From: Panopea generosa
Taxonomy: Eukaryota > Mollusca > Bivalvia > Adapedonta > Hiatellidae
Direction of reading: 5' to 3'
Assembly: GCA_029582155.1 (NCBI GenBank)
Contig: CM055897.1
Span: 10,406,482 to 10,470,481 of the forward strand
DNA: 64,000 bases
Below, piece after piece: positions 26,301 through 60,200 of this stretch. The notes under the pieces were generated by a model that made no database searches, was not told the DNA's origin, and was given only the letters and a program-made list of their open reading frames with translations. The position numbers and the translations under genes were made by a program. How positions within the stretch are numbered: the first letter of the stretch is position 1; each line of letters starts with the position of its first letter.

Positions 26301-29300
26301 ACATGACGATGTGCCGCACATAAGACCCAGACCCATACCTCAAAGGTCAAGGTCACACTTTCAATGTGTTTGATATTTTGTGTCTGGTATTTAACTTTGT
26401 CTTTAACTTGGCTCAATTGATCAAGATGACATGATGATGTGCCGCACATAAGACCCAGTCCCATACCTCAAAGGCCAAGGTCACACTTTGAGTTTGTTCG
26501 ACAACACTTTGAGTCTGTTTTAGATTTCAAGTCCAGTCTATAACTTTATCATACATGGATGTATTTCAATAACACTTGGCTCATTTTATCAATTGATTAA
26601 CATGGCATGACGAAGTGTCGCATTAAGACCTAAAACCTTACCTCAGATGTCAAAATCACACTTAGATTTTGTTTGATATTTCATTTCAGGTCTGTAACTT
26701 TGTTTTACTTGGAGGGATTTTAAAATAGCTTGATATAAGTAATCAACGTGTTATGATGGTGTGTTACCTGTATTTACCTGTAGAAATACCCAGGCCTTTA
26801 CATTAGATATCATGGTCATGATCACATTTTAATGTAAAAAAACATGAAATTGTTTGTCTAGTCTGAAACATTAGCCCATGACTCTTGATATTCATGGATA
26901 CATCGCTACATATTCTAAAATATCTCGTTATTTTCACAGACCATTTGGAGGGCATGCGACACTTACCAGTGACATTTCTTGTTTTTTTATGATTATGTAA
27001 TGCTATGCTACTGTGAAAGTGATGAACGTGCAATTGTGTGATAATGCATATACAAGTGTGTGATAATGAATATACAAGTGTGTGATAATGCATATACAAG
27101 TGTGTGATAATGCATATACAAGTGTGTGATAATGAATATACAAGTGTGTGATAATGCATATACAAGTGTGTGATAATGCATATACAAGTGTGTGATAATG
27201 CATATACAAGTGTGTGATAATGAATATACAATAAAAGCTGGTTGACAGTCTTTTTTGAGGTTTTTAACATGTGTAACTGCATACAAATTATGTTTATTTA
27301 GGTTAAATATAAAAAACTCTATTTCAGGATGATGATGCTGTGTCATTTGCATGAAACTGAATGGCAGCAAGTTGAAGGACGTGAAATACGAGTGAACAGC
27401 TGCTTAGCAAATACTGGTACAAAAAAGACAAAACCAGCAAAGGTGGAAAAATATCCTTTTGTATGAAATAACAATTTTGTTTTGAAATTGATAGTGTAGA
27501 AAGAGAAATATCGGGTTATGTTTTATATATTGAGGATTTTATAAGAAAAACTTTCCTCTGACTAAATATGCCAATGAAATAAACTTGGCATGTAAATCAA
27601 ATAAGCTTATAACATCAACATGACTTCCGCTACAGTGATATTACAATAGGTTGTGATGAAATATGGTTCCCGTTTCTATTATTGTGATTCAGTTAACTGC
27701 AACAGACGCTGGAGTACAAAGTAGACATAACTTTTTCTGTTTCATTAACCAGTGTAAACATGGATACAACAATTTATTTGCTGGTATACACGTCGGGTGC
27801 TGGAAAAATGATAAATAATATATGTTACTGTCAGTATACACTGGGTACATTAATAAAATAGATATCTCAGACCTTTTATAAATAATGGAAATAAACTTGT
27901 CAAACTTGATATAAAGAGGTAAACTTCATTTATTGGGCATTCATGAGATATGAACTTGTATGCCACAAGCAAAGTTTACATGAACCCGGACGTGGTTCAC
28001 TTACTTTCCACTTGGGTATATGTCATATGACTGGTAGTTCATATCTCGTGACTGTTCAACAAATGATAGTGATTTATGTATTAAATATGATATTTTAGGT
28101 AGTGATTATAATCTTCATTATCATGGTGATACATTCGTACATGTAGTATAAAGGTTGATTTGATGCAAACGAATAAAATTTAATTTCAGTATTAATACTA
28201 ATTTATTTTAACGTAATAACAAAAAAGTCAAAGCTCATATGAACTGTTCTTGAGTCCACATCTGTTGTTAGAACCATGCTGACTGTTTTAGAGGTATCAG
28301 GTCGAGCTGGGGATCGAACCTGCAGTCTCTGGTGTCAACAGTCAGCCCCATTCACTACACTACCACCCCACTTAAGATTTCAGCAATTGTGTGTCCCTTT
28401 AACATCATCAACATGTTAACTAGATATGCTATATCCACATAAAAGTAATCCTTATTATTATAATAAATTACAAGCATTTCTGGTGTTTTCTGAGATCATT
28501 AATTTCCTTGACCATCATTACTCTGATAAAACAGGAAAATCCACAAAATTTAGACCAAGCAATGTTGCAAAGAGTCCATTCCAAGGTGAGATTGCAAAGA
28601 AGGACAAGAAGAAACCAAAAGCAAATAAAAAATCGACTCCCAATTTAATGCATGATAAGAAAGATAAAAGCAAACCGAATGACAACACAGAGAAGCAGAC
28701 AAAGGATCCGAAACCAGTTTCTAGTAAAACAAAGAAAATCGTGAATGTTGGTGACGGGAATAAGTTTGAGAAGAAGGATGTAAATTTAAAAGGAGACAGT
28801 ATTAAAGGAAAACCAAATGGTAGTTTTCAGAAAAAAAACAGACAGTAGTGGCAAGTTTTCTAACAATAAAAGTTTTGACAAGAGCAACTCAGGCTTTCAG
28901 AACAGAACGTTTGATAAGAAACCAGGTTCACCGAACAAAAGCTTCGGCAATAAGGCTGGTGGTTTTGCAAAGAAACCAGGCTTTCAAAATAAGACTTTTG
29001 AAAAGGGCAGCTCTGGGTTTGGTGGAAAACCTGGCTTTCAAAACAGGAGTTTTGACAAGGGCAGCTCTGGTTTGGTGGAAAACCTGGCTTTCAAAACAGG
29101 AGTTTTGACAAGGGCAGCTCTGGGTTTGGTGGAAAACCTGGCTTTCAAAACAGGAGTTTTGACAAAAGCAGTTTTGTAAGTAAACCAGGCTTTCAAAATA
29201 AGAGTTTTGACAAAGGCAGCTCTGGGTTTGGTGGAAAACCTGGCTTTCAAAACAGGAGTTTTCGACAAAAGTAATTTTGGGAGTAAACCAGGATTTCAGA

Positions 29301-29395
29301 ATAAAAGTTTTGGTGGAAGACCTTCATCAGCAAGTAAACCTCCACCTTCAATATCCATTGGCTCTAAATCAGGAAAACATACTAAATTTGATTGA
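14322..29395 (+). CDS. RBM34: RNA-binding protein 34, two-RRM nucleolar protein
   Basis: The family (yeast Nop12-like) acts in the nucleolus in large-subunit rRNA maturation. Exons: 14322-14552, 15170-15504, 16737-16956, 17360-17419, 19723-19766, 20820-20903, 22211-22271, 23896-23938, 24263-24381, about 27328-27442 (or 27460), and about 28535-29395. The first nine have GT-AG borders and agreeing phases. The N-terminus is lysine-rich. RRM1 begins TVFVGNLPLE (about residue 251) and continues LFKEYGEIEAIRYR and CVAYIRFKE. RRM2 begins SVFVGNLPFD (about 351) and ends KGFGYVAFQ (391-399), closely following vertebrate RBM34. The tail is basic, then repetitive (GFQN/SFDK). ATG 14322 follows an in-frame TAG that also fits a 3' splice site (CTTTTTAG), so a 5'UTR exon is possible. 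Exons 10 and 11 carry about five single-base frame breaks. The exon 10/11 junction is uncertain. Confidence 0.88.
15551..16435. mobile_element. 'CAGTCAAACCTGT' MITE, split by another element
   Basis: The left piece (TACAGTCAAGCCTGTTTAGG) and the right piece (AGCCACCTCTATTGACC ... TTTAATACAGGTTG) belong to the short terminal-inverted-repeat family also seen at 21856-22038 and 47324-47508. The copy is interrupted at AGCCACCT by the foldback element 15578-16240. Confidence 0.6.
15578..16240. mobile_element. CpG-rich foldback element with 8-bp target duplications
   Basis: A 663-bp element in RBM34 intron 2. It starts ACGGAATCCGGTTAGTGCCA and ends with the inverse, and the inverted match continues for about 50 bases. 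It is flanked by identical AGCCACCT at 15570-15577 and 16241-16248; an 8-bp duplication is typical of hAT-type transposition. The inside consists of clustered CGACACACGA / TCGTGTGTCG motifs in both orientations and three CAAGGGCGACGCACGA modules. It is CpG-dense in an AT-rich setting. No transposase is encoded; open frames on both strands are palindrome echoes. Confidence 0.85.
17205..17237. repeat. (TC)n microsatellite
   Basis: A short pyrimidine dinucleotide run in RBM34 intron 3, inside a longer CT-rich stretch that reaches the exon 4 acceptor at 17359. Confidence 0.8.
17445..18791 (+). mobile_element. mariner-type DNA transposon, inactive
   Basis: A 1347-bp element in RBM34 intron 4. The terminal inverted repeats begin CGAGGGGC and continue TTTCAAAAGTAATGCAACT at both ends, with one extra base on the right. 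TA dinucleotides flank it at 17443-17444 and 18792-18793, as for the Tc1/mariner target duplication. It carries a decayed transposase (see 17635-18545). Confidence 0.92.
17635..18545 (+). pseudogene. Broken mariner transposase
   Basis: Helix-turn-helix DNA-binding residues are in one frame (SYATVTRWLKKFKSD; LTFHQIASIVGISAASVFRI at 17925-17985). The catalytic triad is recognisable in pieces: GDETWVHFFEP (about 18132), HDNAPAH (about 18418) and the region near 18500-18535 with SPDLASCDY. Spacing between the last two aspartates is 34 residues, the mariner D34D signature. At least three stops or frame changes, including near 17672 and 18057, make it non-functional. Confidence 0.85.
18836..18968. 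repeat. Dispersed repeat, related to 20038-20195
   Basis: Both copies share CTACTCATTCTCT, a cytosine-poor middle, then CATGGCGAG followed by GAACAAGTAGAATT or GGACAACTGGAATT. The second copy runs directly into a SINE at 20201. Confidence 0.5.
19450..19640 (+). repeat. SINE family A
   Basis: The tRNA-like head contains GTGAATAGAGTGTTGGATGC and a good B box, GTGTTCGATTCCC. The body, CACTCAGTACTGGTTTTACC followed by CAGGAAGAGACTCC, matches the other family A copies. It lies in RBM34 intron 4. Confidence 0.78.
20038..20195. repeat. Dispersed repeat copy next to a SINE
   Basis: See 18836-18968 for the shared motifs. This copy abuts SINE family B. Confidence 0.5.
20201..20443 (+). repeat. SINE family B
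   Basis: The tRNA-like head GGTTAGCTTGGTCGGTAGTG resembles an A box. The body has GATGATTGATATATGACATT and the tail TAACTGATCGTCTGTTAGC. Full relatives lie at 23564-23823 (+) and, interrupted, 31410-30830 (-). Confidence 0.7.
21856..22038. mobile_element. 'CAGTCAAACCTGT' MITE
   Basis: Terminal inverted repeats ACAGTCAAACCTGT and ACAGGTTTGACTGT bound about 180 bp in RBM34 intron 6. Subterminal GTGGCTGCTTGATAGAGGTG is a hallmark shared with the copies at 15551 and 47324. Confidence 0.72.
22405..22750. repeat. 38/39-bp minisatellite, about 9 copies
   Basis: Units of TGTGCTGTGTCCTTCCTTGT followed by ACAAGCCCAACC(A)GAGTCA lie in RBM34 intron 7. Unit lengths of 38 and 39 alternate through one optional base, so every frame stays open for a while; those frames are not genes. 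Confidence 0.9.
22771..23225. mobile_element. Foldback element with long inverted arms
   Basis: The left arm (22771-22868) and right arm (about 23106-23225) are inverted copies over roughly 95 bases. They share GTAGATCTGACGACCA and GTCACCTCAGATTGACCTTT, with a spacer of about 240 bases. It immediately follows the minisatellite in RBM34 intron 7. No target duplication is clear. Confidence 0.7.
23298..23466. mobile_element. Short palindromic MITE-like element
   Basis: Starts GGGTGAATTTCAGAGC and ends GCTCTGAAATTCACCC, with arms extending through AAACTATTGTAAGC and GCTTATAATAGTTT. A related arm occurs at 174-230. Confidence 0.7.
23564..23823 (+). repeat. SINE family B, most complete copy
   Basis: The head GATTAGCTCAGTCTGACTAT (A box) and the B box AAGATCGAATCCCC indicate tRNA origin. 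The body carries GATGATTGATATATAACATT and GAGATGGGGTGTGCTCGAG. The tail carries CTGACTGTCTGTTAGCCC. It lies in RBM34 intron 7. Confidence 0.8.
24690..25410. repeat. Imperfect ~22-25-bp tandem array
   Basis: About 700 bases of AT-rich units of the form GTGTCTTAATGAATATGCAATA with many single-base and length variants, in RBM34 intron 9. Confidence 0.75.
25520..26980 (+). repeat. Internally repetitive 'GGTCAAGGTCACA' element
   Basis: Begins near a CCCCC / GGGGTGGCATATAG boundary. It contains about seven diverged modules of roughly 170 bases, each with CTGTAACTTTGTC, a GGCTCAATTGATCA-like stretch, ACATGACGA and TCAAAGGTCAAGGTCACA. It ends GACCATTTGGAGGGCATGCG. Similar repeats are common in bivalve genomes (general knowledge). 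A reverse copy sits at 32600-33375. The RBM34 exon 9-10 intron hosts this one. Confidence 0.7.
27034..27232. repeat. 20-bp minisatellite, about 10 copies
   Basis: Near-perfect units of GTGTGATAATGCATATACAA, some with GAATATACAA, close to RBM34 exon 10. Minus-strand reading frames through it are repeat echoes. Confidence 0.92.
27328..27460 (+). pseudogene. RBM34: RBM34 exon 10 with frame breaks
   Basis: A good acceptor (CTATTTCAG) leads into DDAVSFA, the expected end of RRM2. The frame then meets TGA at 27352-27354. The remaining conserved residues lie in two other frames: KLNGSKLK, then REIRVNSC. Two single-base changes, near 27350 and 27377, would explain this. I cannot tell genuine decay from consensus error. 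The donor may be AAG|GTGGAA at 27442 or TTT|GTATGA at 27460. Confidence 0.65.
28215..28372 (-). repeat. SINE family A, minus orientation
   Basis: Contains CTTGAGTCCACATCTG, AGAACCATGCTGACTG, and GAGCTGGGGATCGAACCTGC (reversed B box), ending CACTACACTACC. It lies just upstream of RBM34 exon 11. Confidence 0.72.
28869..29335 (+). repeat. RBM34: 54-bp coding repeat in RBM34 tail
   Basis: Tandem units of about 54 bases encode GFQNKSFDK and SSGFGGKP style peptides. The best-conserved copies begin near 29017, 29071, 29125 and 29221 and share GGAAAACCTGGCTTTCAAAA. The frame changes at the A8 run 28831-28838, near 29070 and near 29263. Vertebrate RBM34 has a basic tail without these repeats, so this is a lineage-specific extension. 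Confidence 0.75.
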
Positions 29396-35774: not shown

Positions 35775-38700
35775 TTAACCAATCAAAATGTCTAATTCCT
35801 CAACAGGAAGTTGTACCCTGAGTTCCTTCTCTGTCATCAGGTCCACTGTCTCCTGCAGTTGATCAGAACCAAACATTCTCACACCATCCATGTACAGACT
35901 CTGTAATGTAATACATATATATATGTAGTGGATTTTGATTGATACAATGTATATATTTTATCAGATTATATATATATTTTTATATAGATTATATACATGT
36001 ATAAGGTGGTGTAAGATCATAAGAAATTTTTTAACATTCCATCCCAAGGGATAATTGTTTTGGCAAAGCCTAGTTCCAATGGGGACAGATATTTCAAGGG
36101 ACCGATTTTCTATCCAAACCGAAAAAGCCATGAATGATTCTTTTTCTTGCATGCCAGATGCATTGAATAATTATTTTAACTTAATTCATCATTATATTTT
36201 TTACAATGATTGCTTTTAAGATGTTAAATTATGATTTACTTTATATATTTTATACTTTTACATCATAAATGGTTTTGTCACAGCGTGAGAATTTCATCTC
36301 GGCCCGGGGGTGAGAAATATCCAACCCTGGTTAAGCAATGCTGTAGAGATGTAATTGATCAAGTAACATGGAAATACAAAAAAAAAAAGATTGAATGGAA
36401 TCAATAATGTACAGCATTGGTTAAAAAATCTAATTACTTTTTTGTTATGGCAGGATCCATTTTTTTCTGACATTACAGAATCCATAATTATTTGGACAAA
36501 ACTATTTCTGTTGCCATAGCATACTAGTATTAACAAAAGCAAAAATGATTTACATAATAAATATTTTTCAGACTGAATGGAATGATTTACAGAGGGTAAA
36601 CCTTTAGTCCCTGCTTGGGACATCACAGCTATATATTCAATCAATAAGTTAAACTATCCTTTTACTTCATATAGATACATTTGGACACCTCTAAATAGAG
36701 AAAGCTTTTGAAAACAGTGTAGGACCAGTTCTGATTGCTCGTAAAAATAAATAGGTAAAATGTATCTATTCATGGAAATTGACTATGTGTGGCTTTGACT
36801 TTGGAAGAGTCCATTTAAAATCCATATAGAGTAAAGGGCTATGAAAGCAGCAACTTGGACATCAAGGCATAACCAGGTTGAATTAATACTGAAGAGCAAA
36901 AAACCATAGTAGATTTTTAGTTTTTTGCAAAAATTCACCTTTCACTTTGACCCAAGGACACTGGTGACAGTCCGATAATACACTCACCTTGACCCAGGGA
37001 CACTAATGAAAAGCCCTATAATATAATCACCTTGACCTCTGGACACTAATGTACAGTCCCATAATACACTTACCTTGACACAGGAACACTGCTGTACAGA
37101 CCTGTAATATTAACCTTGACCCTGGGACACTGTCGTACAGCCCAATGATACACTCGCCTTGACCCAGGGACACTGCTGTACAGACCTGTAATATTAACCT
37201 TGACCCAGGGACACTGCTGTACAGCCCAATGATACACTCACATTGACCCAGGGACACTGCCATACAGCCCGATAATACATTCACCATGACCCAGGGACAC
37301 TGCTGAACAGCCCTGTAATATACTCAACTTGACCCCGGTTGTGGTACAACCCTGTAATACACCCACCTTCCTCAGGGATACTGTGGTACAGCTTTGAAAT
37401 ACACTCACCTTGACCCAGAGACACTGCTGAACAGCCCTGTAATACACTCACCTTGATCCCTGCTGTGGTACAACCCTGTAATACACCCACCTTCCTCAGG
37501 GAGACTGTGGTACAGCTTTGAAATACACTCATCTTGATCCAGGGACACTGCAGTACAGCTTTGTAATACACTCACCTTGACCAAGGGACACTGCAGTACA
37601 GCTTTGTAATACACTCACCTTGACCCAGGGACAATGCTGAACAGCCCTGTAATATACTCAACTTGATCCTGGCTGTGAAACAACCCTGTAATACAACCAC
37701 CTTCCTCAGGGATACTGCGGTACAGCTTTGAAATACACTCATCTTGACCCAGGGACACTGCAGTACAGCTTTGTAATACAATCTCCTTGACCAAAAAACA
37801 CTGCTGAACAGCCCTAAAATACACTCACCTTGACCCAGGGACACTATTGTACATCCCTTTAATACACTTATCTTGACCCAGGGACACTGTAGTACAGCTT
37901 TGTAATACAATCACTTTGACCCAGGGACACTATTGTACAGCCCTTTAATACATTAACCTTGACCCAGGGACACTATTGTTCAGCCCTGTAATACACTAAT
38001 CTTGACCCAGGGACACTGTTGTACAGCCCTTGAATACATTCATCTTGACCCAGGGACACTGTTGTACAGCCCTTCAATACACTCATCTTGACCAAGGGAC
38101 ATTGCTGTACAGCCTTGTAATATACTTACCTTCACTACTGACTGTGGTACAGCCCTGTAATACATCCACCTTCCTCAGAGACACTACTGTGCAGCTTTGA
38201 AATACACTCACCTTGACCCAGGGACACTGTTGTACAGCCCTGTAATATACTCATCGCGAGTCAGGGACACAGCAGGACAGCTTTGTAATACAATCACCTT
38301 GACCCAGAAACACTGGTAAACAACCCTGTAATACACTTACATTGATCAAGGGACACTGCTGTATAGCCCTGTAATACACTCATCTTGACCCAGGGACATT
38401 GCTGTACAGCCCTGTAATACACTCAACATGGCCCAGGAACATTGCTGTACAATCCTGTAATACACTCAACTTGACCCAAGGAAACTGCTGCATAGCCCTG
38501 TAATACACTCAACTTGACCCAAGGACACTGCTGTACAGTCCTGTAATACACTCAACTTGACCAAGGGACACAATTGTACAGCCCTTTAATACACTCATCT
38601 TGAACCAGGGACACTGTTGTATAGACCTTTAATACACTCACATTAACCCAGGGACACTGTTGTACAGCCATTAAATACACTCAACTTGACCCAGGGACAC

Positions 38701-41700
38701 TGCTGTACAACCCTGTAGTACACTCACCTTGACCCAGGGACACTGCTGTACAGCCCTGTAATACACTCGCCTTGACCCAGGGACACTGCTGTACAGCCCT
38801 GTAATACACTGGCTTTGAACCAAGGACACAGTGTACAGCCCTGTAATACACTCAACTTGACCCAGGGACATTGCAGTACAGTCCAGTTATACACTCAACT
38901 TGACTCAGGGACACAGTTGTACAGCCCTTTAAAACACTCATCTTGACCCAGGGACACTGCTGTATAGCCGTGAAATACACTCATTCTGACCCAGGGACAT
39001 TGTTGTATAGCCCTATAATACACTCATCTTGACCCAGGGTCACTGCTGTACAGCCCTGTTATACACTCAACTTGACCCAGGGACACAGTTGTACAGCCCT
39101 GTAATACACTCATCTTGACCCAGAGACACTGCTGTACAGCCCTGTAATACACTCAACTTGACACAGGTCCACTGCTGTACAGCCTTTTAATACACTCAAC
39201 TTGACCCAGGGACACTGCTGTACAGCCCTGTAATACACTCAACTTGACACAGGGACGCAGTTGTACAGCATTTTAATATGCTCACCTTGACCCAGAGACA
39301 CTGCTGAACAACCCTGCAATACACTCACCTTGACCCAGGGACACTGCTGTACAACCCTGAAATACACTCACATTGACCAAGGGACACTGCTGTATAGCCC
39401 TATAATACAGTCACTTTGACCCAGGGACACTGTTGTACAGCCCTGTAATACACTCAACTTGACCCAAGGACACTGTAGCCCTGTAATATAGTCACCTTGA
39501 CCCAGGGACACTGTTGTACAGCCTTGTAAAACACTCAACTTAACCCAGGGACACTGCTGTACAGTCCTGTAATACACTTTACTTGACCCAAGGACACCGC
39601 TGTACAGCCCTGAAATACACTTAACTTGACCCAGGGACACAGTTGTACAACCCTCTAATACACTCATCTTGACCAAGACAAACTGCTGTACAGCCCTTTA
39701 ATACACTCATCTTGACCCAGGGACACTGCTGTACAGCCCTGTAATACACTCAACTTAACACAGGGACACTGCTGTACAGCCCTTTAATACACTCATCTTG
39801 ACCCAGGGACACTGCTGTACAGCCCTGTAATACACTCAACTTGACACAGGGACGCAGTTGTACAGCATTTTAATACACTCACCTTGATCCAGAGACACTG
39901 CTGAACAACCCTGCAGTACACGAACCTTTACCCAGGAACACTGCTGTACAACCCTGTAATACACTCACATTGACCAAGGGACAATGATGTATAGTGCTGA
40001 AATATAGTCACCTTGACCCAGGGACACTGTTGTACAGCCCTGTAATACACTCATCTTAACCCAGGGACACTGCCTCTAATACACTCAACTTGACCCAAGG
40101 ACACTGTTGAACAACCCTGTAATACACTCAACTTGACCCATGGACACTGCTGTACAGTCCTGTAATACACTCAACTTGACCCAAGGACACTGCTGTACAG
40201 TCCTGTAATACACTCAACTTGACCCAGGGACACTGTTGTACAGCCCTATAATACACTCATCTTGACCCAGGGACACTGCTATACAGCCCTGTAATACACT
40301 CAACTTGACCCAAGGACACTGCTATACAGCCGTATAATACACTTGCCTTGATCCAGGGACAATGCTTTATAGCCCTGTAATACACTCACCTTGACCCAGA
40401 GACACTACTGAACAACCTTGCAATACTCACTTTGACCCAGGGACATTGCTGTATAACTCTGTAATACACTCACCTTGACCCAGGGACACTGCTGTATAGC
40501 CCTGTAATACACTCAACTTGACACAGGGACGCAGTTGTACAGCATTTTAATACACTCACCTTGACCCAGAAACACTACTGACAACCCTGCAATACACTCA
40601 CCTTGACCCAAGGACACTGCTGTACAACCCTGTAATACACTCACATTGACCAAGGGACACTGATGTAAAGCCCTGAAATACAGTCACCTTTACCCAGGGA
40701 CACTGTTGTACAGCCCTGTAATACACTCAACTTGACCCAGGGACACTGCCTCTAATACACTCAACTTGACCCAAGGACACTGTTGTACAGCCCAGTAATA
40801 CACTCAACTTGACCCATGGACACTGCTGTACAGTCCTGTAATACACTCAACTTAACACAGGGACACTGCTGTACAGCCCTTTAATACACTCATCTTGACC
40901 CAGGGACACTGCTGTACAGCCCTGTAATACACTCAACTTGACACAGGGACGCAGTTGTACAGCATTTTAATATGCTCACCTTGACCCAGAGACACTGCTG
41001 AACAACCCTGCAATACATGCACCTTTACCCAGGAACACTGCTGTACAACCCTGTAATACACTCACATTGACCAAGGGACAATGATGTATAGCCCTGTAAT
41101 ACACTCAACTTGACACAGGGACGCAGTTGTACAGCATTTTAATATGCTCACCTTGACCCAGAGACACTGCTGAACAACCCTGCAATACATGCACCTTTAC
41201 CCAGGAACACTGCTGTACAACCCTGTAATACACTCACATTGACCAAGGGACAATGATGTATAGCCCTGAAATACAGTCACCTTGACGACCCAGGGACACT
41301 GTTGTACAGCCCTGTAATACACTCAACTTGACCCAAGGATACTGCTGTACAGTCCTGTAATACACTCAACCTAACCCAAGGAAACTGCTGCATAGCCCTG
41401 TAATACACTCAACTTGACCCAAGGACACTGCTGTACAGTCCTGTAATACACTCAACCTGACCCAGGGACACTGTTGTACAGCCTGGTAATACACTCATCT
41501 TGACCCAGGGACACTGCTATACAGCCCTGTAATACTCAACTTGACCCAAGGACACTGCTATACAGCCCTATAATACACTTGCCTTGATCTAGGGACAATG
41601 CTTTATAGCCCTGTAATACGCTCACCTTTACCCAGAAACACTACTGAACAACCTTGCAATACTCACCTTGACCCAGGGACATTGCTGTACAACCCTGTAA

Positions 41701-44700
41701 TACACTCACATTGACCCAGGGACACTGCTGTATAGCCCTGTAATACACTCAACTTGACACAGGGATGCAGTTGTACAGCATTTTAATACACTCATCTTGA
41801 CCCAGAGACACTGCTGAACAACCCTGAAATACACTCACCTTGACCCAGGATCACTGTTGTACAGCCCTGTAATACACTCATCTTGACCCAGGGACACTGC
41901 CTCTAATACACTTAACTTGACCCAAGGACACTGTTGTACAGCCCTGTAATACACTGAACTTGACCCATGGACACTGCTGTACAGTCCTGTAATACACTCA
42001 ACATGGCCCAGGAACATTGCTGTACAATCCTGTAATACACTCAACTTGACCCAAGGAAACTGCTGCATAGCCCTGTAATACACTCAACTTGACCCAAGGA
42101 CACTGCTGTACAGTCCTGTAATACACACAACTTGACCCAGGGACACTGTTGTACAGCCCGGTGATACACTCATCTTGACCCAGGGACACTGCTATACAGC
42201 CCTGTAATACACTCAACTTGACACAAGGACACTGCTATACAGCCCTATAATACACTTGCCTTGATCCAGGGACAATGCATGTATAGCCCTGTTATACACT
42301 CACCATGACCCAGAGACACTACTGAACAACCTTGCAATACTCACCTTGACCTAGGGACATTGCTGTACAACCCTGTAATACACTCACCTTGACCCAGGGA
42401 CACTGCTGTATAGCCCTGTAATACACTCATCTTGACCCAGGGACACTGCTGAACAACCCTGTAATACACTCATCTTGACCTAGGACAAGGCAGTTCAGCT
42501 TTATAATACAATCACCTTGATCAAGAAACACTGCTGAACAGCCCTGTAATATACTTACCTTGACCCAAGGACACTGCTGTAAAGCCCTGTAATATACTCA
42601 CCTTGACCCAGGGACACTGCTGTACAGTCCTGTAACACACTCAATTGACCCAGGGACACTGCTATACAGCCCTATAATACACTCACCTTGACCCAGAGAC
42701 ACTACTGAACAACCTTGCAATACTCACCTTGACCCAGGGACATTGCTGTACAACCCTGTAATACACTCACCTTGACCCAGGAACACTGCTGTACAACCCT
42801 GTAATACACTCACCTTGACCCAGGGACACTGCTGTATAGCCCTGTAATATACTCCCTGCAGCCTTGCACTACTTCTTGTCTGCAACTGGAATATCATAAT
42901 GAAAATTGAAACAAGTATTCAGTATAAAATATCCACAAGTAAAACAACAAATCAAGCTTCCTATTCATCTTTTGATAAACACCATGGTATATTTTCTAAC
43001 CATTACAATGTACATGTATGTTAGACCCTACAAACGATCCCAGATCTCTCCACCAGGGACCATCACATAGCATTGGAAGAAACACACTGATTGGCTACAT
43101 CTAGCAATAATAGCAACTCACTGATTGGCTACATCTAGCAATAATAGCAACTCACTGATTGGCTACATCTAGCAATAATAGCAACACACTGATTGGCTAC
43201 ATCTAGCAATAATAGCAACTCACTGATTGGCTACATCTAGCAATAATAGCAACTCACTGATTGGCTACATCTAGCAATAATAGCAACTCACTGATGGTTC
43301 AGTTAATTTTATGTTGAAAGTCCCAAATGAATGTGAGGTTAAAATTAAATTGTGATATTTTTTCTCACCATATAACCTTTATAATGAATATAGAAACTAC
43401 CAGCCAGTCATATTTCACATGTTTAATCTTGCATCGATAGACTCAACTGCCATTGTTGTTATTACTAGTATTCTATTATTTATCATTGTGGGACAGGCAT
43501 GGAATTCTTTTTTTTTTCATTGCAGACCTGAATCGAGACTGTCACGGACTGGTATCGTCAATTGTTACTAAAAGTCAATGGCACGATCATCAAAAATGAA
43601 TTTTTGCTTCTGTATGAATTATATTTATTATTGTGTAAGAGTCGTCAGCCTTCCTTCAAGTTGATTAGGCTAACTTACTAGACTGACAAAGTTGAAGACA
43701 AATGACTCTGTTCCTTTCCAGAGAAACATAAAACCAGACTCCCGGTACCATTTCGGGTAATATACATAGACCCTATTATAATTAACTGTGACTTTTATAG
43801 TTCAATCAATTGTCTGAAATGTTTGAATAATTGATTAAAAATTTCAGCTCCAATTTCCTACACTATGTATAAACATAATATTACCTCCAAGTTTCTCAAT
43901 CAGATGTGTTTTATAAAAAAGATAGAGAAAGAGAAAGGATCTACATGTCTAATTATGTAAACTCACCTCCAGTTTTAAATACAGCCTCCACAAAAGAGGA
44001 CAGTGTTGTAACGTAGACTGTGATACAGCTTGCTCCAACCACGTCCTGGTCCTGTGTACCAGTCCACTGTTGCTGACAACACCAGCTTCTGTAAGAAACA
44101 GTTGTAAATGTAAAACCAACAATCAATTAACATATAAAAGGCAGTATAGATCAGGAAAAATTGATATCAATAAAATTACTTTTAAAATAGATGCAAGGCA
44201 TCTCATTATCATTCATAAATAAAATACAAAATTGGTCTTTCAAATCTGCCAAAAAGTGAAAAAAATGTTTTAATCAGAGTGGAGAAATTAAACAAAATCC
44301 CATTCTAAAAATAGAGAGTACATCTGACAACCTTCAACTCATAACTCAGACTCTTTCTAAAATGAAACAAACTCACTTGTGTAATCAATATAATGTATCA
44401 AACTGATATTGAAATAAAGCAACTCAATTGATGTGTCACCAAATACTTTGCAATTTTTAGCAGGAAATCTATTTTAGTCTAACAACTGGGGCATGTAGGC
44501 CAAGTTGGGAAATACGTTTTCAATAAATTGTTTTGGATAAAAAATGTTTTTCAAACTTTGAGAAATCCTGATATACTTCCTTTAATGTCAGCCAAGCTGG
44601 ATAAAATTCAAAATTCTAACATTCAAGGGATCTTACACGAGTATCCATTTAATATTGGTATAAAATTAATTAAATGATAAAATATATTATGAGTGGCTGT

Positions 44701-47700
44701 TGTCATTTAATACATTTAATAATAAATGTGCACAAATGTAAGATTCTTTTTACCATTAAGGAGGAATATACCTTTTAAATTATTTTCAACTAATTTGTCT
44801 ATAGCATTTATGATAGCGTGTCTGTTTGGTGCACGTACAAAACCGTCATTTTTTTTCACTTACAGGGAACTGGATTTCAAAACAATATTCTCATTTCTGA
44901 CTAGGCTCCACGACTGCTAGTGAAATGTGGACATCACGGTTGTCAGTTATTAGAACAACAGGTCTGGCCTTTTTAAAGTTCGGAGCAAACTGTTCAATAC
45001 ACATTCATAAATTGAGCTTGAAACAATACCCACTATTGCAGTGAAAAGCCACCCTTCCACCCAGCCTCATGCTCCTACGTACGTTCAATGACAATATACC
45101 TGGATCGTGGCTTTTCACTGCTCATCATAGACGGTATTGTTTCAAGTCCATTTTATGTATGTGTAACAGTTTGCTCAGAATTTTAGAAAGGCCAGACCTG
45201 TTGTTCTAATAATTGACAACGGTGATGTTCACATTTCACTAAAACAAAACGTATACCTCATGCGCTATACCGACGTTGACGTTTGCTTTAAAGCATTTTT
45301 TCACGTAGGGTAGGGTTAAATAAATGAATATCATAAAAAATATAGTTTGTAAATTTTTCTAAAAATGTCACAATTATTGAACGATATATAGTATGAAAAT
45401 ATATAAAAATTATGCAAAATTTGCTTGATTTGATTTTTGGCAATTTTGATTTGAAGCCGTTTTTACAAAAAAAATCTAGAGAAAAAATAGTTTCCGTTTT
45501 TCGCTAGTATTTTCAAAATGTGGCGTTCGTCGTAATTTTTGCATCTGTAAATCCATACATCCGTCAAATGTGTACATGGTGATATATGTTTCTATTCTGT
45601 GTATAAGGAATAACTCAACTGAGGTCGAAAAAATAAGCGATTTTGCTGCTATACATTGGGACGTCAAAAAGACTGAACATGGCCATGTTTACGACGTCAC
45701 ATATAAATATATATTCTATTGACCGCTGCAAAAAATTTATATTCACATTGGAAATTTCTTCTAGTTTCATAATATACTAATTGAACCACTGATTTAGAAA
45801 ATAATTTAACCTTAATCAACTGCCTTAAATCTTATGGAAAACGCGTAGAATTATGCAATATGTTGACGTCTTTTTTGACGTAGGGTGGGGTTAAATAATT
45901 AAAAATAAAAAAAAAACTAGTTTGTCAATTGTTCTAAAAATCTCACAATCACTGTGAAGCATATTGTTAGAAATCAAATAAAAATTATTCCAAAATCGCT
46001 CGGTTTGTTTTTTGGTTATTTTGATTTGAAGCATTATTTTCAAAAAAATTCGAGAAAATAATAATTTCCGTTTTTCACTAATATTTTCAGAATTTGGCGT
46101 TCGTTGTAATTATTGCATATGTAAATTCATATACCCTTTGAATGTGTACGTGGTGATATGTGTTTCGATTCTGTACATTCGGTATAACTTGACTGAGGTC
46201 GACAAATACGCGATTTTGCTGCTATAAATCGGGACGTCAAAAAGACCAAACATGGCCATGTTTACGACGTCATAGGTAAAGAAGTGTTATATTTACCGCA
46301 GAGAAAAAGCATATTCAAATTGGAAATTACTTCTAGTTTCATTACATACCAAATATCCCACTGATTTCGAAAATAATTTAAAAGGTATATTCCTCCTTAA
46401 AGCAACACATCCACGTTTGAACTTTTAAAAAAAAAAAATTTAATTGAGTTATGAGCACATTTCCCATACAAACATATGATCAATTAGCTGTATATTAGCA
46501 TATAAGCACAATCCCGAACAAAATGATGCCCAAATTATAATGCGTGACTAACACTTTATAAAACAAGCGTGTAACTCACCCAAGTCAAAAAAAATTGTCA
46601 AAATGACTTTAAAGGCAGGTAAAGTACACTACACACTAAAACGTGAAGTTTTTTAATACGACTCGCATAATTCAATTTGAAGCCAAGTTGGAATCCTCGG
46701 CAATTTAAAAATAATTTATAAAGCGTTTGTCACGCTTTATAATTTGAACATCTTTTTTTATAATTCTAAAGCGTTATGGATAGTGTTTGTTAGCATAATA
46801 CAGCTCACTGACCATATATTTATGTATGGGAAATGTGCTCACAACTCAATTGAAAAACTTTTTAAAAAAGTTTAAAAGTGGATGTCTTGCTTTAACTCAG
46901 AAAAATTATACATAGACTATTTATTTTTCAGGTAATCTTTATAAGAAACCAGAAAAAATTGTTTTTTCCCAAGATTCTATAAAAACACTTTGTACATACA
47001 TGAATTAGTTTCTGTCTGACAGTCATCATTATGATGTAACACAGTTAATTGTGTTTATTAACGTATTTAACCTATGTTTGGTGACAGACTGCTCTAACAA
47101 CTGAATTGTTTGCTGTTCCGATACATTTCATTTAAAAATATATACATGATGTATTGTTATACTTTTTTTATGGTCAAATGAGGTTGTAAGTTACATCAAT
47201 CGCCAATGTTAACATACTGGCAAGTGATACATGTCTGAGTTGTTTCCGAATGGTTGTTAATCAACTTTAATTTTTCTTTAGTTTTGTAAATAAAATAAGA
47301 ATTGGATATCAATAAGTTAAATTATACAGTCAATAGTGTCTCAACTTGCCACTCATGGAAAAGAGCTAAAAACATCCCTTTAGGCAGGTGGCTGCTTAAT
47401 ACAGGTTAATTAAAATTAAAACTATAAAAATGGTAAATAGAAAATGTGGCTATTTAATACGGGAGGTTGTTTAATAGAGGTGACCACTAACACAGGTTTG
47501 ACAGTAGTTTAAAAAGAGTCTTAAAAGCATAATCATTTTATATTCGCTCATCAGTTTAACATTTCAATGTAACCATAGACAGTCCCATACCTGCTGTCTT
47601 ATCAGTTAAACTAGACAAGAACTCCATCTGTGCTTGTACAGCAAACACCACTGGGACAGGAGACATGGCAGTTCTGCTCCATCTATCAAACCATCGATTG

Positions 47701-50700
47701 AAACGTCCGCTAATCCGTGACTTCCTCTCAACATCCACAAACAGTGCTAAAAATATTGGGTTGCCTGGGTATTTCCCAAGAGCTGCATCCAAACATTGAC
47801 GCAGAATCTGCAGAGGGGTTGAAAACACTGACATGTGATACAAAATAAGTCTTAACTGGTCCTGGAACAGCTGTTGCTCAAGTTCAGCATAGTAAGGAGC
47901 ATTTATTTTATTCTTTATCAAAGATGTAAGTTGCCTGTACACATCAAGACCAGCCTGTAGATCAGTCTTACAGTAGGAGAATAGACTATAGCACCAGGTG
48001 ATATACCTTAGCTTTGTACATGTGTAGGCATTCATGCTGCCCAGATGATCAAGCTCACTACAGGCACACTCCACCAGTTTCGAAAATCTTGATGAAGTTT
48101 TAAGGACTGCTAAACTCGACAATTCCTCACATGTTTTTGGTTTAAATGTTTTTCCTTCCGCCAAATAACTAAATACTGACAATACCCGTTTTTTAGTTTC
48201 CATGGCAACTGGGGATAACTTTTCACACAACCTATCCGGATTCTTCTGCTTTATCTTCAGAAGCATTTCAGCGTAGCAGTTGAACAAAGAGATTAAGCCT
48301 ACAGCCTGTTCAGTAGAAACTGTATCAAGGGCTTTCCCGCCATTCATGCTGAGGGCTGTCTCAGCCATGACTTCAGCTTCCCCTGTTTTACCCAACACTC
48401 TTTCTAAGTTGATATACGCTGTCCATATCAACAGATCACTGCGGTTGTGTTCTTCTTTTAATATGTTTTTCAACACTTTTCTCATTTCCTTTTTTTCATT
48501 TTTTGTTAATTCTGAGGGATTTGTTTTAATTTTCCGTAGCTGAGCTTCAATTAGTGTTAATGTTAAATCTGACTTTTCCTTCCCTGTGAAATGTTTTATG
48601 AGTAATGTTAACATGTTAACTATAAAGCTGTGCACAACAGTTTCAATGCTCCCTTCGTAGCACACCAAATTCTCATTTCCACTCATCTTTGACTCCCCTA
48701 GAAAGAGATCTGATTTCAACTTTTCATGTGACATGCCACCATTATCTACATCCAATCCCAGTAAAGATAAAAAGTTTAAGACAATTCTAAAATGGTAATT
48801 TCTTGAGACAGTAAATAAGATTTGAGAAATATCATCAAACAAAACAAGTCGCTCAACATCCTCACAATCTTCATCAGTTTGACCTTTGGAAAGGTCAGGT
48901 TTCCATGGCAACCAGTGATGCTGTTCCCGTAATGTCTCTATCTCAAGCCATTTGTCATTTTTGGATATATTTTTCTCAATGATAGCCTCCTCCAAGTCTT
49001 CCAAGTTTTCTGTTAGAAAAGAAAAAACTATTTGATATAAATGGCTATGAACCGATAAATCATAAGCTGCCAATTGTATCTTTGTAATCCCATTTTTTAT
49101 ATTTTTTGTTTTGTATTTAGATAATTACTCTGTGCTTTTTCAACTTCAGTATCTGTTCGAGGACACTTTAACTTTAAGGTTGTTTTTTTTTTTTTTTTTT
49201 TTTTTTTTTTGGTGGGGGGGGGGGGGAAAGGGGACAAACGGTAATTGCAAACACTGTAATTGTAACTACTATTTATACATCTATGGAACTTCACAATTGT
49301 CTTCACTTCCATTGAAGGGAACAAATGGGATATCTCTGTTGTAAGCAGATCTTTTGCCCCTATATCTACTATAGAAGTTTTGTTAAAGAGTTTTCTCATA
49401 TCTCAGAAAATACTATTCACATTTAAATGAATATTAATATGTTCAGTTTTAAATAAAAAAAACACAGGAAGAAGTGCAATAACCTTTAATTGTATTTTGT
49501 TAGAATTATATTCCTTTCCTTTTTATACTATAAAATAGGTTAGATTTTTATAGCATGCGCAATAATAGTGTCCTATTTCAATTATCTAACAGCTTTTGTT
49601 CTAAGACAAGGCAAAAACAACAGGTGAAAAAATACTATGCTCCTCCCCCTCATTTCTGGAATGGCAGGGGCATAAAAATACTCACCTTCAGATTGACAAG
49701 AATTTTCTTGTTTCATCCCAGAATTCCTCTGTTCACTCCAGATTGTCCAGCCATGTGCTCCAGGCTCTCCAAGTCTGGCACAACCACTATCCCAGAATTC
49801 CTCAAAGTTGGCCATTTTAGTTTCCATGTCACTCCCCTCCAGAGATGTAGGACAGAAGATGTTGTACTCCAGCACTGCCTGTAGTGAGGCTACAGCCCTC
49901 TCCTTGTGACCAGTCTGCTTCAAAAAGTCACAGTACTGGAGGAAGATTTCTGGAAAATATTTAGTTGAATATAGTATAGTTAAATATATATGATTATTAT
50001 ACATGTACATGTAACTCAAATATAAAATATACATTTACAGAATTATACTCAAATAAGAAAACAGTTTGAAATTTGGTTAATCAGCAATTGTTCATTGCAG
50101 GGGGGGATTAATTCATTCATTATGGCCTTATACAAATAATGTGCAAGTTTGGTGAAGATCATAATTAACGAAAATTAATAAATGAAAACTGAATGTGCTA
50201 GAGCAACACATCAAATAACACAAATTTTGACAATTCATGTATTTTACAATAATCAACAGATTTGGTAAGTTCAAGAACTGGTCCATGATATTTTAATTAT
50301 AACTACTATGTAAGTTTAGTGGAGATTAAATGAAAACTGTGAGAAATAGAGTGCACATAAGATCAAAGAATGCAATTTTTGATGATTAAAGGGCCATAAC
50401 TCCAACATTAATTACCTAATTCAAGAACTTGTCTACGGTGTTATGGTTTATATATAACTACGACTGCTATGTAAATTTGGTGAGGAGCAAATGAAAAGTG
50501 CAGGTGCTATTGTGCACACAAGGTCAAATAGTGTTATCTTGATTATTCAATGACCGTAACTCCAACATTACAGATTTGGCTAGTTCTAGAGCTTGTCCCA
50601 TATATTATGGTTATATAACTACTGTGTAAGTTTGGTCAGGATAAAAGGAACAAGAGTTGTCAAAAGACAACAAATCTCGCCCCTGGGTGTCTAAGTCCAA

Positions 50701-53700
50701 AAAGGGTCATAACTGTGCCAAAATGCAATCAAGAGTTATGGTTCTTGTCTGTTTGTGTTCCAATGATGATGATGAACACACATGCGAAGTTTCATTCACA
50801 TCCAATGAGTGGTTGCATAGACATCTTAAACTTAAAGTTTAACCTTGGCGATGCCGACGACGCTGCCGGGATCATGGCAATAGCTCTCCTTGGACTTCTT
50901 CCCGGCGTGCTAAATATGCGGGTGCTTAAATGCACACAAGATCAAATAGTGCAATTTTTAAGGTTTCAAAGATCCATAACTGTGACATTAATTAGCCGGT
51001 CTGAGAATCGTTGCATCTTTTAAACCATTTTATTATTTTCCCCTTACTTTTTTACCAGTTCAAACAATAAGCAATATCATCATAAAAAAAAAACAAATAC
51101 AAAAAAATATTCTATTTTACCTACAACTTCCTGACTCAAGTTTTCAGGAACAGAATGTGTCTGCACTCTTCCCTCCAGAACACCAAAAAGGGTCTTGAAA
51201 CATTTGTGATAATACTTTGTCACCTTCGAAACAGTGAACACAGATATCCTTGACTGGTTAAAGGTCAAATAATACTTCCATAGTTTTGTGTTTGCTGGGT
51301 GAATAAACAACAACTGTTCCAATTCCTTACTAATCTTTGTTGCATCAGAAATTTCACTGTTTAGTTCTAATTTAGTTAGTAACAGATCAATATTTGCTGG
51401 ATTGGATTCCAAAGCTTTATCAAGGATACTTAACTTCTTCTCCAAAACAGTTCTGCTAGTATGCCTCAATATATCCTGCTGTACCAATGACTCTTTTTCG
51501 GAATATTTTTCATCTAAACCAATGGAATCCTGAAACTTTACGAAGTCAAGCCATAGTTGAATATCATTTGGTGATTCTCTTATTTTTCTGTTGAACTCGG
51601 CAACTTTATATCTGCTTGGATTAGAATTACTATATGGCTGTTCCTCACACTTATCCAGTTCAGTGAGTGCTCTCCCTTTAACATACATACTGGTACCCGT
51701 GTCTAATATCTGTTCTCTGACATCAAATCCTTCTTCATGTGCTGGGCCATCACTTGATTCTACCTTAATGTACTGTTCATCTACTCCTAATTCTCCCTTG
51801 CTTGCTCCCCCTTCTGACACAATAAGCCCTTCAGCACCCATTCTTATCAAGTTTCTGTTCTCTTTTCCAAAATACCTATTACTGACAGTTTTACCTGATT
51901 TCTGTTTACTTTTATTACCAAACATTATCTGCTGTCTTCCATGTAATCCCAGGTAGTTAGGATGAAATAGTTTGTATCTGGCGACGTGAAGTTTGTACAG
52001 CGATCCATAAGTCCAGCTGTTTTTGTCGGCACAGCGGTCAAGTCGAAATGCACGATGTGGGGGCAAATCATCAGTCTCCTCTATAAATATCTTATTGCTG
52101 GGATAAAGATTTGGTCTGGAAGATAAAAAATAAATAATAAACAAACCAGTGACCATGCTATGCTAAACAATTCTATAAATTTATTTAAAAATATGGAAGA
52201 TATAGAGCAGATACAAATGTTTATCTGATGAACGGATGTAATGACGGACAGAATTGGGCTAGTCAGTACAGGCTTAATTACAAGAATCAGTTCAACAACT
52301 GACTTCCACACCATCTGTCTTGAAATGGAGTACTTAAACTTTTTCATTGTGTTTAGAAGCCATTTTCATCGTGACAGGCTGTATATGGCATACATAATTT
52401 TGTTGGTTGTGGAAGACCTCTGAATAAATCTAAGCACAACTGCTGTCCTTCCGCAAGTACCTGGCAAACTTTTCACATAAAGATTTTTTACCAAGCTTGG
52501 CTCAAACCCACATCTTCAGTGGTGAGAGGTAAGTGGTTATTTGATGACAGTGGCCTAGGCCACTCAGCCATGGAGGAGCCACGACATAAGGATTAAACTA
52601 GCGGTAATACAGTTGTATTTAGTAATGTACAAGTTCATATGGACCTGTAAAATTTATAACAAAATTTCTCTTACAAATCATGTTTTGGATCCTTATGTAT
52701 TTTGATATCTTCTTTTTCTTTTCTGTGCTTTTTTTGTTTATGCTTGTGTTTCTTTTTTTTCTTTTTCAGCATCCTGTCAACAGATTCATCACTCGACGTA
52801 TATCTTTTGTCCTTCTTTCGTTTCCTCCCATAATCATGTTTATCATCAGATTCATCACTATTATAAGACTGTTCCCTTTTTACAATGATGTCCTTTTTCG
52901 TTATTCCTGAATGCTCTATTTCTTTCTTGTCTTTTTTGTGTCGACTTCTTTCATTATATTCACGGCTATGTTTCTCTTTTCTGTCTTTTTTCTTTTCTTT
53001 TTCTTTTATTATTTGTCTTCTTTCACATTCATAATCTGGTAAGCTTGAATCTGAAGAAAGCTGATTGGCATCTGCTTTACTCACTGGGTTCTTTTCAACA
53101 TGGCCACTGTCAAAAATTTCAATTTAGAGCAACTTTATTATTTTTATTATTGTATGGTCTATATATTTTATAACTAAATTATATTCACACTAACTAACAC
53201 TGAAAGATGACATAAATATATTAACTTTTTGGCCAAATAGAATTTTAGTAATGACAAAACAATAAAAAGAATCACCAAATGAAAATTGTGATCAACTTTT
53301 ATTTTTTTTTTTAATGGGGTATAATGCCATTTTCAACACATTTCAGGTTATATGGTTTTATTGGTGGAAGAAAACCTCAGTATACATCTGAATAGAACCA
53401 TCGTCTTTCTGCAAGTATCTGGCAAACTTTCTCACATAAACTTTTGAAGTGAGCAGGACTGAACCTATGACCTTAGTGGTGAGCGGTGAGATGGCATATA
53501 GGACCTTGAAATAATTGAACTTGTTGAAATCTAAACAGTTTCTTTACCATTGGATGCCTCAATCCCTAAAACAAGTTGACCCCATTTCACTTAACATAGC
53601 AAACTTGTGTAAATCTAAGATTTAAATAAGAATAACAAGACAACTTCAGATGTTTTATTACTTAGGCTCCTGAAAGTTCTTAACATGATGATGTTAGTGG

Positions 53701-57251: not shown

Positions 57252-60200
57252 ATGGAACTTAACGGTATCTTACCTCCAAGAATGGATTGGGACTCTACAA
57301 ATTTACCGGATGCATGGGATAAATTTGAGAGACACGTTAAGTTAATGATCACTGGTCCTCTTAAAGGGAAATCAGAAGAGGAGTAAATCGCGTACCTCTT
57401 ACTATGGATTGGCGACAAGGGCAGAGACATTCACTCTACATGGACAAACATTTCCGAAAAAGACGAAAAGAAAATCCAGACATACTATGACAAATACCGT
57501 GCGTTTGTACAGCCAAAACTGAACCCAATTTTTGCGAGATATAAGTTCTACAATCAGACACAGGGCGTTGATACCATTGACTCTTTTTTAACCAGACTGA
57601 GACTATGTGCAAAAGAGTGCAGTTTCGACAACCAAGACGAAATGATCAGGGATCGAATAGTGTTCGGCACTAACTCAATGAAAGTCAGAGAAAAGCTCAT
57701 CAACGAAGGTGCAGCTTTAACAATGGACAAAGCAGTACAAATCGCGCAAAATTTCGAGTATTCGAAGCAGCAACTTTCGTCAATGACTATGAGCAGCAGT
57801 TCGGAAGGAAACGACGTACACAACGTTAAGCGGCACCAACGGCACAACACGAGGGACCGACGACCAAGGCCAAAGACGAAATGGGAACAGGACAACACAC
57901 AACAGAAGTGCAGAAACTGTGGGACACCACACCATTTCAAAAGCGAGTGTCCGGCAAAAGGGAAACGATGCCACGGATGTAATAAACTGAACCATTTTCA
58001 AACGGTGTGTCGATCCAGCGGGAACGAAGTACACGCAGTCAAATGTGACAAAAGTGATTCGAGTGATTACGATTCGGATTTTTATGTATATACGGTACAC
58101 AATTTTGATTCTCGACCCGACTGCGCATCCCTTTCACTTTCTGTAGGCAAATCCTCATTCCCAATTACTTTCAAAATAGATACAGGTTCTCGGGTAGATA
58201 TTTTGCCATTTTCACAATACAAAAAAATGAAATGCAAAGCCCCTTTGGTACCCTCTGATAGTAGGCTATCGTCTTACACAGGTTACCCGCTCCCTGTAGT
58301 TGGAAAGGTCACGTTAACATGCAAGCATGCAGACAAATTGGTCAACGCTTGTTTTTATGTTGTAGATAGTAAAGCTCCCGCATTGTTGAGCCTTCATACA
58401 TCTATTGACCTTGGCCTGATACAACTGACCTACGCTATTGATAAACATCAGCGTCTAGACAAACAGACTGTACTGACGGAATACGGTGATATTTTCAAAG
58501 GAATTGGTTTATTCCCAGGAACATGTTATTTGCATCTTAAACCAGACGCTGTACCTGTCGTACGTCTCCCGCGACGGGTACCTGTAGCTTTACAGGACAG
58601 ACTTAAAACAGAACTTAAATCAATAGAAGACAAACAAATTATTCAGAAAGTGACTGAACCGACTGAATGGGTAAACGCTCTAGTATGCGTCGAAAAACCG
58701 ACAACTGGAAATCTACGAGTGTGTCTGGATCCTAAGGCGCTCAATGACAACATACTAAGACCTCATTACCCAATGCGAACGATAGAAGACGTAGCAGCAC
58801 GCCTAAATGGAGCTAAGTACTTTAGTGTTTTGGATGCCACTAAAGGATACTGGTCAATCAAACTGAACGACGAATCATCATATCTGACCACATTTAACAG
58901 CCCTTTTGGTCGCTACCATTATCTGCGTTTACCTATGGGAATTCGCAGCTCTCAAGACATTTTCTCAAGGAAAATTGACGAGTTCTTCGAGGACTTACCC
59001 GGTGTCACATCGATAATTGACGACTTGTTGATTTATGGAAACACTCAGCAAGAACACGACAGCAATCTTAAAAATGTCCTTTTGTGCGCTAGAGAGATGG
59101 GAATGAGATTTAACCCCGACAAATGTGTAATTAGGTCAACTGAAGTTAAGTACTTGTCATATATTAAGTTCGGAGGGTTTAAAGCCCGACCCCGAAAAAG
59201 TTTCAGCAATATTGGCCATGAAAGCACCTCAAAATAGAGTTGAATTAGAAACCCTGTTAGGAATGGTTACCTGTCTGAGCAAATTTAACTCCAACCTATC
59301 ACAGATAGGGAGTCCGATGAGAGACCTACTGAAAAAAGACGTAGAATTCATTTGGGACTGCGCACAAAACAAGGCTTTTGACAAGGTCAAAATAGCTATC
59401 ACACAAGCCCCAGTGCTAGCGTACTTTAATGCCAGGAAACCAGTCCGGCTGCAAGTCGAAGCGAGCTCTAGGGGCATTGGAGTCACGTGCCTTCAAGACG
59501 GAAAACCAATTGCTTTTGCGTCAAAGACACTGACACAGACAGAAATTGGCTATGCTCAAATCGAGAAGGAAATGTTAGCCATTTTATTTGGACTGACACG
59601 TTTCAGACAGTTCTGTTATGCTCGACATACAGTTGTCGAATCTGACCACAAACCAATTGTACCAATAATGAAAAAACCTCTAAGCAGTGCACCTCCTAGA
59701 CTACAAAGAATGTTGCTACAGTTGCAAAACTTTGACATAGAAGTCACACATGTAAGCGGCAAAAACATACCAGTTGCCGATACGTTAACACGTAACTTTG
59801 TCAAGAATACGTACTCCGATCTGACAGAAGGACTGGACGTACATATACATACAGTAATCAAAAGTCTGCCTGTAAGTGACAACAAATTGCAACAAGTTCG
59901 ACTAGCTACACAAAATGACAACCAGTTTCAAATTCTGAAATAGACTATACTCGACGGTTGGCTGGATGCGAGAATTGATTGTCCATCATCTGTGGCTAGA
60001 GTTCTGGAATCACCGGGACGAAATGTCAGTGGGGGATGACATAATATTTCAATGTCAAAAATTAGTTATCCCCAAACCATTGCGTCAAGAAATGATAAAC
60101 ACAGTTCATATCGGCCATATTGGTGTCAATAAGACGGTAAGCCGGGCACAGGATATAATGTTTTGGCCTTTAATGACAAAATACATAACTGACCACGTGT

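Follow-up and report, generated by a model that had tools for sequence, protein, structure and literature searches.

Tandem repeats that resemble minisatellites and extend over exon-intron boundaries have been described in amphioxus as mirages, in Adh3, the globin genes BflGb6 and BflGb9, TnC and PGBD5 (PMC3087553, PMC3902484). The mirage units of Adh3 measure 10-72 bp and the two haplotypes of BflGb6 carry 6 and 3 units (PMC3087553, PMC3902484). Undisturbed regular splicing and a length that is unstable between haplotypes or in somatic cells are further marks of the class. Here we describe a 43-bp tandem array in the gene NRDE2 of the bivalve Panopea generosa, located in a window of 64,000 nucleotides (assembly GCA_029582155.1, contig CM055897.1, positions 10,406,482 to 10,470,481, forward strand), to which all positions refer unless a contig is named. 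The array, read in this one assembly, starts with the end of the penultimate coding exon and the 5' splice site of that exon, and it is probable that it represents a tolerated mirage, born by slippage, whose first donor stays in use.

A related human case concerns IFI6 (6-16, G1P3), where Turri et al. in 1995 are said to have described a minisatellite that gives several splice donor sites. In IFI6, downstream repeat units act as alternative donors (PMC4526556). The tandem duplication of segments that bear AGGT has also been put forward as a model of intron gain (PMC4974935).

The NRDE2 array and its probable seed exon

NRDE2 is encoded on the minus strand, and eight exons were found in a partial gene model (Table 1). 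The penultimate coding exon, numbered 8 in a first-pass annotation of the window but the seventh of the eight found here, has 72 nt, begins with TTGCAGACAAG, ends with GGTCAAG and reads LQTRSSARLQGVYYRAIQQCPWVK. Its final 36 nt, followed by GTGAGTG, are unit 1 of the array. Tandem Repeats Finder (TRF) reported 139 copies of 43 bp at 36942-42854 with 79% matches, and wrap-around alignment resolved 139 head-to-tail units, 5.9 kb in total, with a short exonic lead-in preceding unit 1. The claim of the first-pass annotation that the array begins inside the NRDE2 exon with 36 exon-end bases and GTGAGTG is confirmed; its estimate of about 135 copies is corrected here to 139. The last NRDE2 intron, about 6.9 kb long and ending at the last coding exon, is mostly filled by the array.

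Only 1 of 43 bases separates the array consensus from the exon copy, to which units 11 and 56 are identical. There are 117 distinct unit sequences, and block duplications recur, such as units 26-32 and 55-61. Mean differences from the consensus over the first 33 (exonic) columns, with gaps counted, were 2.7 for units 2-7, 3.7 for units 8-117 and 5.3 for units 118-139.

The penultimate exon reads as an old, conserved coding exon, because an alignment with HAT proteins runs in frame through the junction of exons 6 and 7. This alignment was obtained when exons 5-8 were joined and compared with Crooked neck HAT proteins (best E-value 2.5e-6; best single stretch 0.004). The condition set by the first-pass annotation, that the exon be spliced into NRDE2 mRNA, was approached through this homology. 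The Pfam search with the peptides of exon 7 (24 residues) and of the last exon, each taken singly, gave no match. The predicted C-terminus shares 45 of 93 residues with what we take to be the C-terminus of human NRDE2. Across the 1.474-Gb assembly the Pfam NRDE-2 family gave three matches, a count that is a lower bound, and NRDE2 looks single-copy in this genome because all three are exons of this one gene.

Given the in-frame HAT alignment of the exon and a consensus that is a single base away from the exon copy, it is most likely that the penultimate exon seeded the array, in agreement with the first-pass annotation. The opposite course, in which the exon took up its repeat from a genome-wide satellite, would be helped by the abundance of minisatellites in this genome. 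We consider it highly improbable in view of the in-frame alignment of the exon, of the 45 of 93 C-terminal residues shared with human NRDE2 and of a search of the assembly with 366 bases taken from the array's far end as the query. All 23 matches to this query were within the NRDE2 array, and copies of a dispersed satellite family at unrelated loci were not found; the search scores the best candidates only and skips very common words, and its count is a lower bound. The expectation that the repeat would not be widespread at unrelated loci was borne out to this extent. The bases ahead of unit 1 (gcagggagta) are similar to those ahead of unit 2 (aaggtgagtg), and this resemblance suggests microhomology at the seed duplication.

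A second tandem array (34 bp x 6.3 copies, 98% matches) lies at 43081-43295 in the preceding NRDE2 intron, off any modelled exon boundary. At 35884-35910 the last exon's acceptor and first bases (ATTACAGAGTCTGTACA) are similar to an array unit (ATTACAGGGCTGTACA), a likeness equalled or exceeded by 0.36% of the minus-strand segments drawn at random; this observation was made post hoc and was set aside.

Donor and acceptor state of the units

The +1+2 dinucleotide of the 139 units was GT in 62, TT in 44, AT in 25, GC in 6 and another dinucleotide in 2. The strong donor motif NNG/GTRAGT (slash at the exon-intron boundary) was kept in 27 of 139 units with the exon copy included, corresponding to 26 of 138 decoys, and 112 units were without it. 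Most units are therefore not strong decoys, and the earlier picture of an array of uniform decoy donors is not supported. The U1 duplex of the presumed true donor had an energy of -12.6 kcal/mol, tied strongest among the seven donors of the gene model. The strong decoys in units 2-7 had similar energies of -12.5 to -12.6 kcal/mol.

The first-pass annotation had also placed a decoy acceptor at each unit start, with a 28-base pseudo-exon between acceptor and donor. The arithmetic of the pseudo-exon was right, and the AG was retained in 101 of 139 units. The tract upstream of the AG was pyrimidine-poor, with a mean of 0.38 versus 0.53-0.67 at three authentic acceptors of the gene model. The pseudo-acceptors were weak and were set aside as the second half of the decoy idea.

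An AG and a strong donor occur together in 23 units. These units could be taken as a sign of intron gain under way, in which the AG and GT of units and unit pairs would define new introns or 28-nt micro-exons, a reading in line with the AGGT duplication model (PMC4974935) and with the proposal of mirages as a route of intron gain (PMC3087553). Given the pyrimidine-poor tracts and the position of the array, which apart from unit 1 sits in an existing intron, we regard intron gain as very unlikely.

The outcome of decoy use was predicted by translation for 11 of the 26 strong decoys (the 11 among the first 12 strong donors). Use of unit 2 or unit 3 would shift the frame and lead to an early stop in the last exon, and use of unit 4 would place a stop 37 nt ahead of the junction. 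For the other eight, the stop lies more than 50 nt upstream of the junction and nonsense-mediated decay (NMD) is predicted. Among the donors translated, the NRDE2 C-terminus was obtained from the first donor only, and all 11 decoys truncated or altered it.

Other donor-bearing arrays in the genome

Arrays of the same kind were sought in the whole genome with two patterns and their reversed controls. Three AGGTRAGT words spaced 12-42 apart gave 5931 matches versus 2776 for the control, and a pattern with AAGGTGAGT gave 348 versus 222; these figures count matches and not arrays. For the first pattern, flanks were viewed for 13 of at least 20 arrays grouped among the matches listed, all on contig 1. 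For the second, there were at least 15 arrays among the matches listed, including that of NRDE2 and an immunoglobulin (Ig) array common to both lists; 13 were fetched and 12 delimited.

An array start at a coding exon end with homology support was found in 4 of the 26 distinct arrays, namely NRDE2, Ig I-set (3e-10), ABCE1 (1.7e-13) and Pirin (1.6e-6). One of the 26 was marginal, with a SUFU_C-like exon end (Pfam 0.0084, under the cut-off) for which no solved structure matched at E up to 5. Two of the 26 had an open frame and acceptor recognised by eye only, and for one of these a PDB search up to E 5 found no match. The remaining arrays comprised 3 bare candidates and 16 in which no exon was seen.

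GT was kept in 71/73 units of the SUFU_C-like array, 8/8 of the Ig array, 21/23 of the ABCE1 array, 40/50 of the Pirin array, and 15/16 and 13/13 units elsewhere, with 20/24 and 22/24 for the contig 3 candidate at 19.5 Mb; retention in these sister arrays is biased, because the search patterns required three intact donors. The Pirin array has a mean divergence similar to that of the NRDE2 array (13% versus 12%), yet its donors are mostly kept.

The SUFU_C-like array (G000:C2:86781663-86784898; L075, L087) has 73 units of 44 bp and is a second very large array of 5' splice sites. One donor-bearing tandem unit was common to four places on contig 1 (G000:C1:47251479, 58794088, 58800020 and 60058916), and some donor arrays are therefore members of a dispersed family and not exon seeds. 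Five control arrays found with the reversed donor word were viewed and four were delimited (one on one side only), a number too small to yield a rate of exon contact. Among the four delimited, one was like a protein-coding repeat and another borders an open frame of 72 residues. This second array (L099, frame on the right flank) has no donor words and is possibly an acceptor-side repeat.

Selection against decoy donors or drift

The G at donor position +1 (G+1) was the most mutated column of the array, altered in 70 of 139 units, compared with 32% for the next column and 10% for the median column. It required 33 parsimony steps versus a mean of 12.2 (standard deviation 4.2) at 14 other G columns, although step counts also climb with variant frequency. 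Other donor hits were present in 43 of 69 units keeping G+1 and in 10 of 70 units without it, and after collapse to 84 clusters the contrast was 65% (G+1 kept) versus 18% (G+1 lost). On a tree built from exonic columns the contrast was weaker than in the raw counts (34:104 versus 14:100, p = 0.015). None of 3753 matched sets of exonic columns was as mutually exclusive as the donor hits.

Neutral growth was simulated under simple growth rules in three settings of 400 runs each. In 0.25-1% of runs at least 50% of units had an altered G+1, and exclusivity as large as observed occurred in 0 of 147, 0 of 131 and 0.6% of 165 draws. Because the losses of G+1 and the mutual avoidance of donor-killing changes exceed the neutral simulations, selection against decoy donors is suggested, and we lean towards it over drift, its main rival.

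Several observations weigh against the preferred explanation. In 11-13% of the simulated arrays a level of 50% was attained by some column, whichever it was, and G+1 was picked out after the column table had been inspected. Certain G+1 switches on otherwise identical units numbered three, tied with column 22, and the tree requires 13 reversions to G at G+1, which points to noise or conversion. The non-donor columns 18, 19 and 25 also track the state of G+1 (p about 0.001-0.002), an association that is a mark of clonal structure. The sister donor arrays mostly retain GT. Identity to the exon copy, with gaps excluded, was 0.87-0.89 for units 2-106 and 0.82-0.85 beyond, and there is therefore no smooth gradient from the exon.

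The strong decoys are also distributed unfavourably, with 5/6 in units 2-7, 14/110 in units 8-117 and 7/22 in units 118-139. Their clustering beside the exon (5/6 versus 21/132 farther out, Fisher p = 0.0009) is the opposite of a simple purging prediction and weighs against selection, because purging should be hardest beside the exon. Such clustering might arise if the exon refreshed the units closest to it.

Under neutral drift alone, the same mirage origin would apply and the excess of broken G+1 would reflect a few dead subfamilies that happened to be amplified; drift conflicts only with the last, selective step of the preferred explanation. The small number of certain switches and the frequency with which simulated columns reach 50% fit drift, as do the commonness of TT and AT donors, the recurrent block duplications and the tolerance of dozens of intact donors in sister arrays. 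The affected column is however G+1 itself, and other donor hits avoid units with a dead G+1 beyond what was simulated. We accordingly hold drift to be a serious possibility, and a less likely one than selection.

Proposed origin and functional readings

The array is explicable without any function of its own. A tandem duplication across the boundary of exon end and 5' splice site would have given birth to the minisatellite, perhaps aided by a likeness between CAGGGAGT in the exon and AAGGTGAGT at the donor. Growth to 139 units would then have come about by slippage, by block duplication and by unequal exchange. The array would be tolerated because the exon and the first donor, presumably the one used in splicing, are unchanged and all further copies lie downstream of them. 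Units with working donors may have been harmful, and those with a single break in the donor, often at G+1, may have had the advantage during growth; the interior would in consequence consist mostly of damaged decoys.

The function of NRDE2 itself invites other readings. In the mouse, NRDE2 binds U1 as well as 5' splice sites and favours the most upstream donor in the series tested, and with its loss Cdk2 intron 1 moves to downstream cryptic donors that yield stops; the effect concerns weak donors and diminished in reporters with a strengthened donor (PMC10351895). Depletion of human NRDE2 increased intron retention (PMC12524662).

The array could thus be a functional splicing switch, in which the true donor faces competition from intact decoys, chiefly those of units 2-7, and their use yields truncated or NMD-prone mRNA that tunes the NRDE2 level. 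The strong motif in five of the six proximal decoys (units 2, 3, 4, 6 and 7), their U1 energies and the predicted truncation of NRDE2 would suit a switch, and so would the upstream preference of the mouse protein. The mouse effect is nevertheless one on weak donors, the true donor of the array exon shares the top rank among seven, 112 of 139 units carry no strong motif, and unrelated genes carry similar arrays. We judge a switch unlikely. Splicing feedback on NRDE2 through the array is possible and is not favoured, because the true donor is strong (-12.6 kcal/mol). Less likely still than the switch is a bistable, self-protecting loop, in which NRDE2 protein would silence its own array, a drop in NRDE2 would lead to decoy use, truncation and a deeper drop, and decoy loss would be the evolutionary trace of this cost. 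U1 titration was rejected by reasoning on scale, as a single nascent transcript at one locus offers few sites.

Feature coordinates and other observations in the window

Table 1. Positions in the window of the NRDE2 exons, the tandem array and associated features.
Feature	Position	Strand	Basis or remark
43-bp tandem array, 139 units; unit 1 (42807-42849) = exon end + own 5' splice site	36942..42849	-	TRF, wrap-around alignment
Presumed authentic 5' splice site GTGAGTG	42807..42813	-	AAG/GTGAGT, U1 duplex -12.6 kcal/mol
Exon-proximal decoys, units 2-7	42552..42806	-	NNG/GTRAGT in 5/6
Exonic CAGGGAGTA immediately before unit 1, similar to donor AAGGTGAGTG	42850..42858	-	Possible microhomology of seed duplication
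Last NRDE2 coding exon (SLYMDGVRMF...LDILIG, stop)	35775..35900	-	Gene model
Penultimate NRDE2 coding exon	42814..42885	-	Frame; in-frame HAT homology across exons 6-7
NRDE2 coding exon preceding the penultimate one, end LYLKLE/GTGAGT	43967..44088	-	Gene model
NRDE2 exon, PF08424 match	47591..49124	-	Pfam; putative 5' end, inside given open frame
NRDE2 exon, PF08424 match	49686..50034	-	Pfam; putative 5' end
NRDE2 exon, PF08424 match and human NRDE2 structure 6IEH	51121..52162	-	E 4.4e-6 (6IEH); putative 5' end

Other features of the window lie apart from NRDE2. A 30-bp x 73 array (1983-4186) lies immediately upstream of an extended open frame (4657-7170), which contains ankyrin repeats, has a below-cut-off ion-channel match and is taken to be TRPV-like. 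A 54-bp repeat within an open frame at 28962-29312 encodes repeated KPGFQNRSFDKGSSGFGG-like peptides. A tRNA-like Rfam match (31.9 bits) at 54620-54676 adjoins a run of N and may be part of a short interspersed element. Open frames like those of long terminal repeat (LTR) retroelements occupy 57387-60961, the first with an RVT_1 match and a later one integrase-like by eye.

Comparison with known systems

The first-pass annotation knew of no described satellite of this origin in this gene. The kind is already described, in the amphioxus mirages and in human IFI6. As to the locus, searches of the literature on NRDE2 and intron retention, on repeats and splice sites, on duplicated or tandem 5' splice sites and on molluscs returned no title on an NRDE2 array, and none of them combined NRDE2 with repeats.

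The NRDE2 array resembles the IFI6 minisatellite in that a repeat with donors lies at the end of an exon. The alternative donors of IFI6 are used in mRNA, whereas the downstream NRDE2 units are putative donors, and the unit length of 43 is no multiple of 3. Isoform coding of the IFI6 kind was not found among the 11 decoys translated (of 26 strong), each of which truncates or alters the C-terminus. With the AGGT model of intron gain the array shares a tandem duplication that spans the junction or bears AGGT; it differs in being a repeat within an existing intron, with no new intron shown.

The 139 units also form a natural ladder of copies of one 5' splice site, strong, weakened and dead, behind an unchanged first donor. 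Such a ladder would test both the choice of the first among many equal sites and the purging of decoys. It sits in the gene of a factor implicated in the choice of the most upstream 5' splice site, and the feedback hypothesis is thereby directly testable.

The closest likeness is to the amphioxus mirages. In both, a tandem repeat spans an exon-intron boundary, with a first copy in NRDE2 that appears authentic by frame and homology, and in both several genes of one genome are affected (here Ig, ABCE1 and Pirin, with three weaker cases). Because NRDE2 and three more homology-supported cases share this genome, the comparison suggests that splice-site-seeded minisatellites reach beyond amphioxus. 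The NRDE2 array is far larger, with 139 units and 5.9 kb versus 6 and 3 units in BflGb6, and its unit of 36+7 nt lies at a 5' splice site of which 112 of 139 copies lack the strong donor motif. As read from its sequence, the NRDE2 array has the defining feature of a mirage and differs from those described in its size, its donor decay and the gene that carries it.

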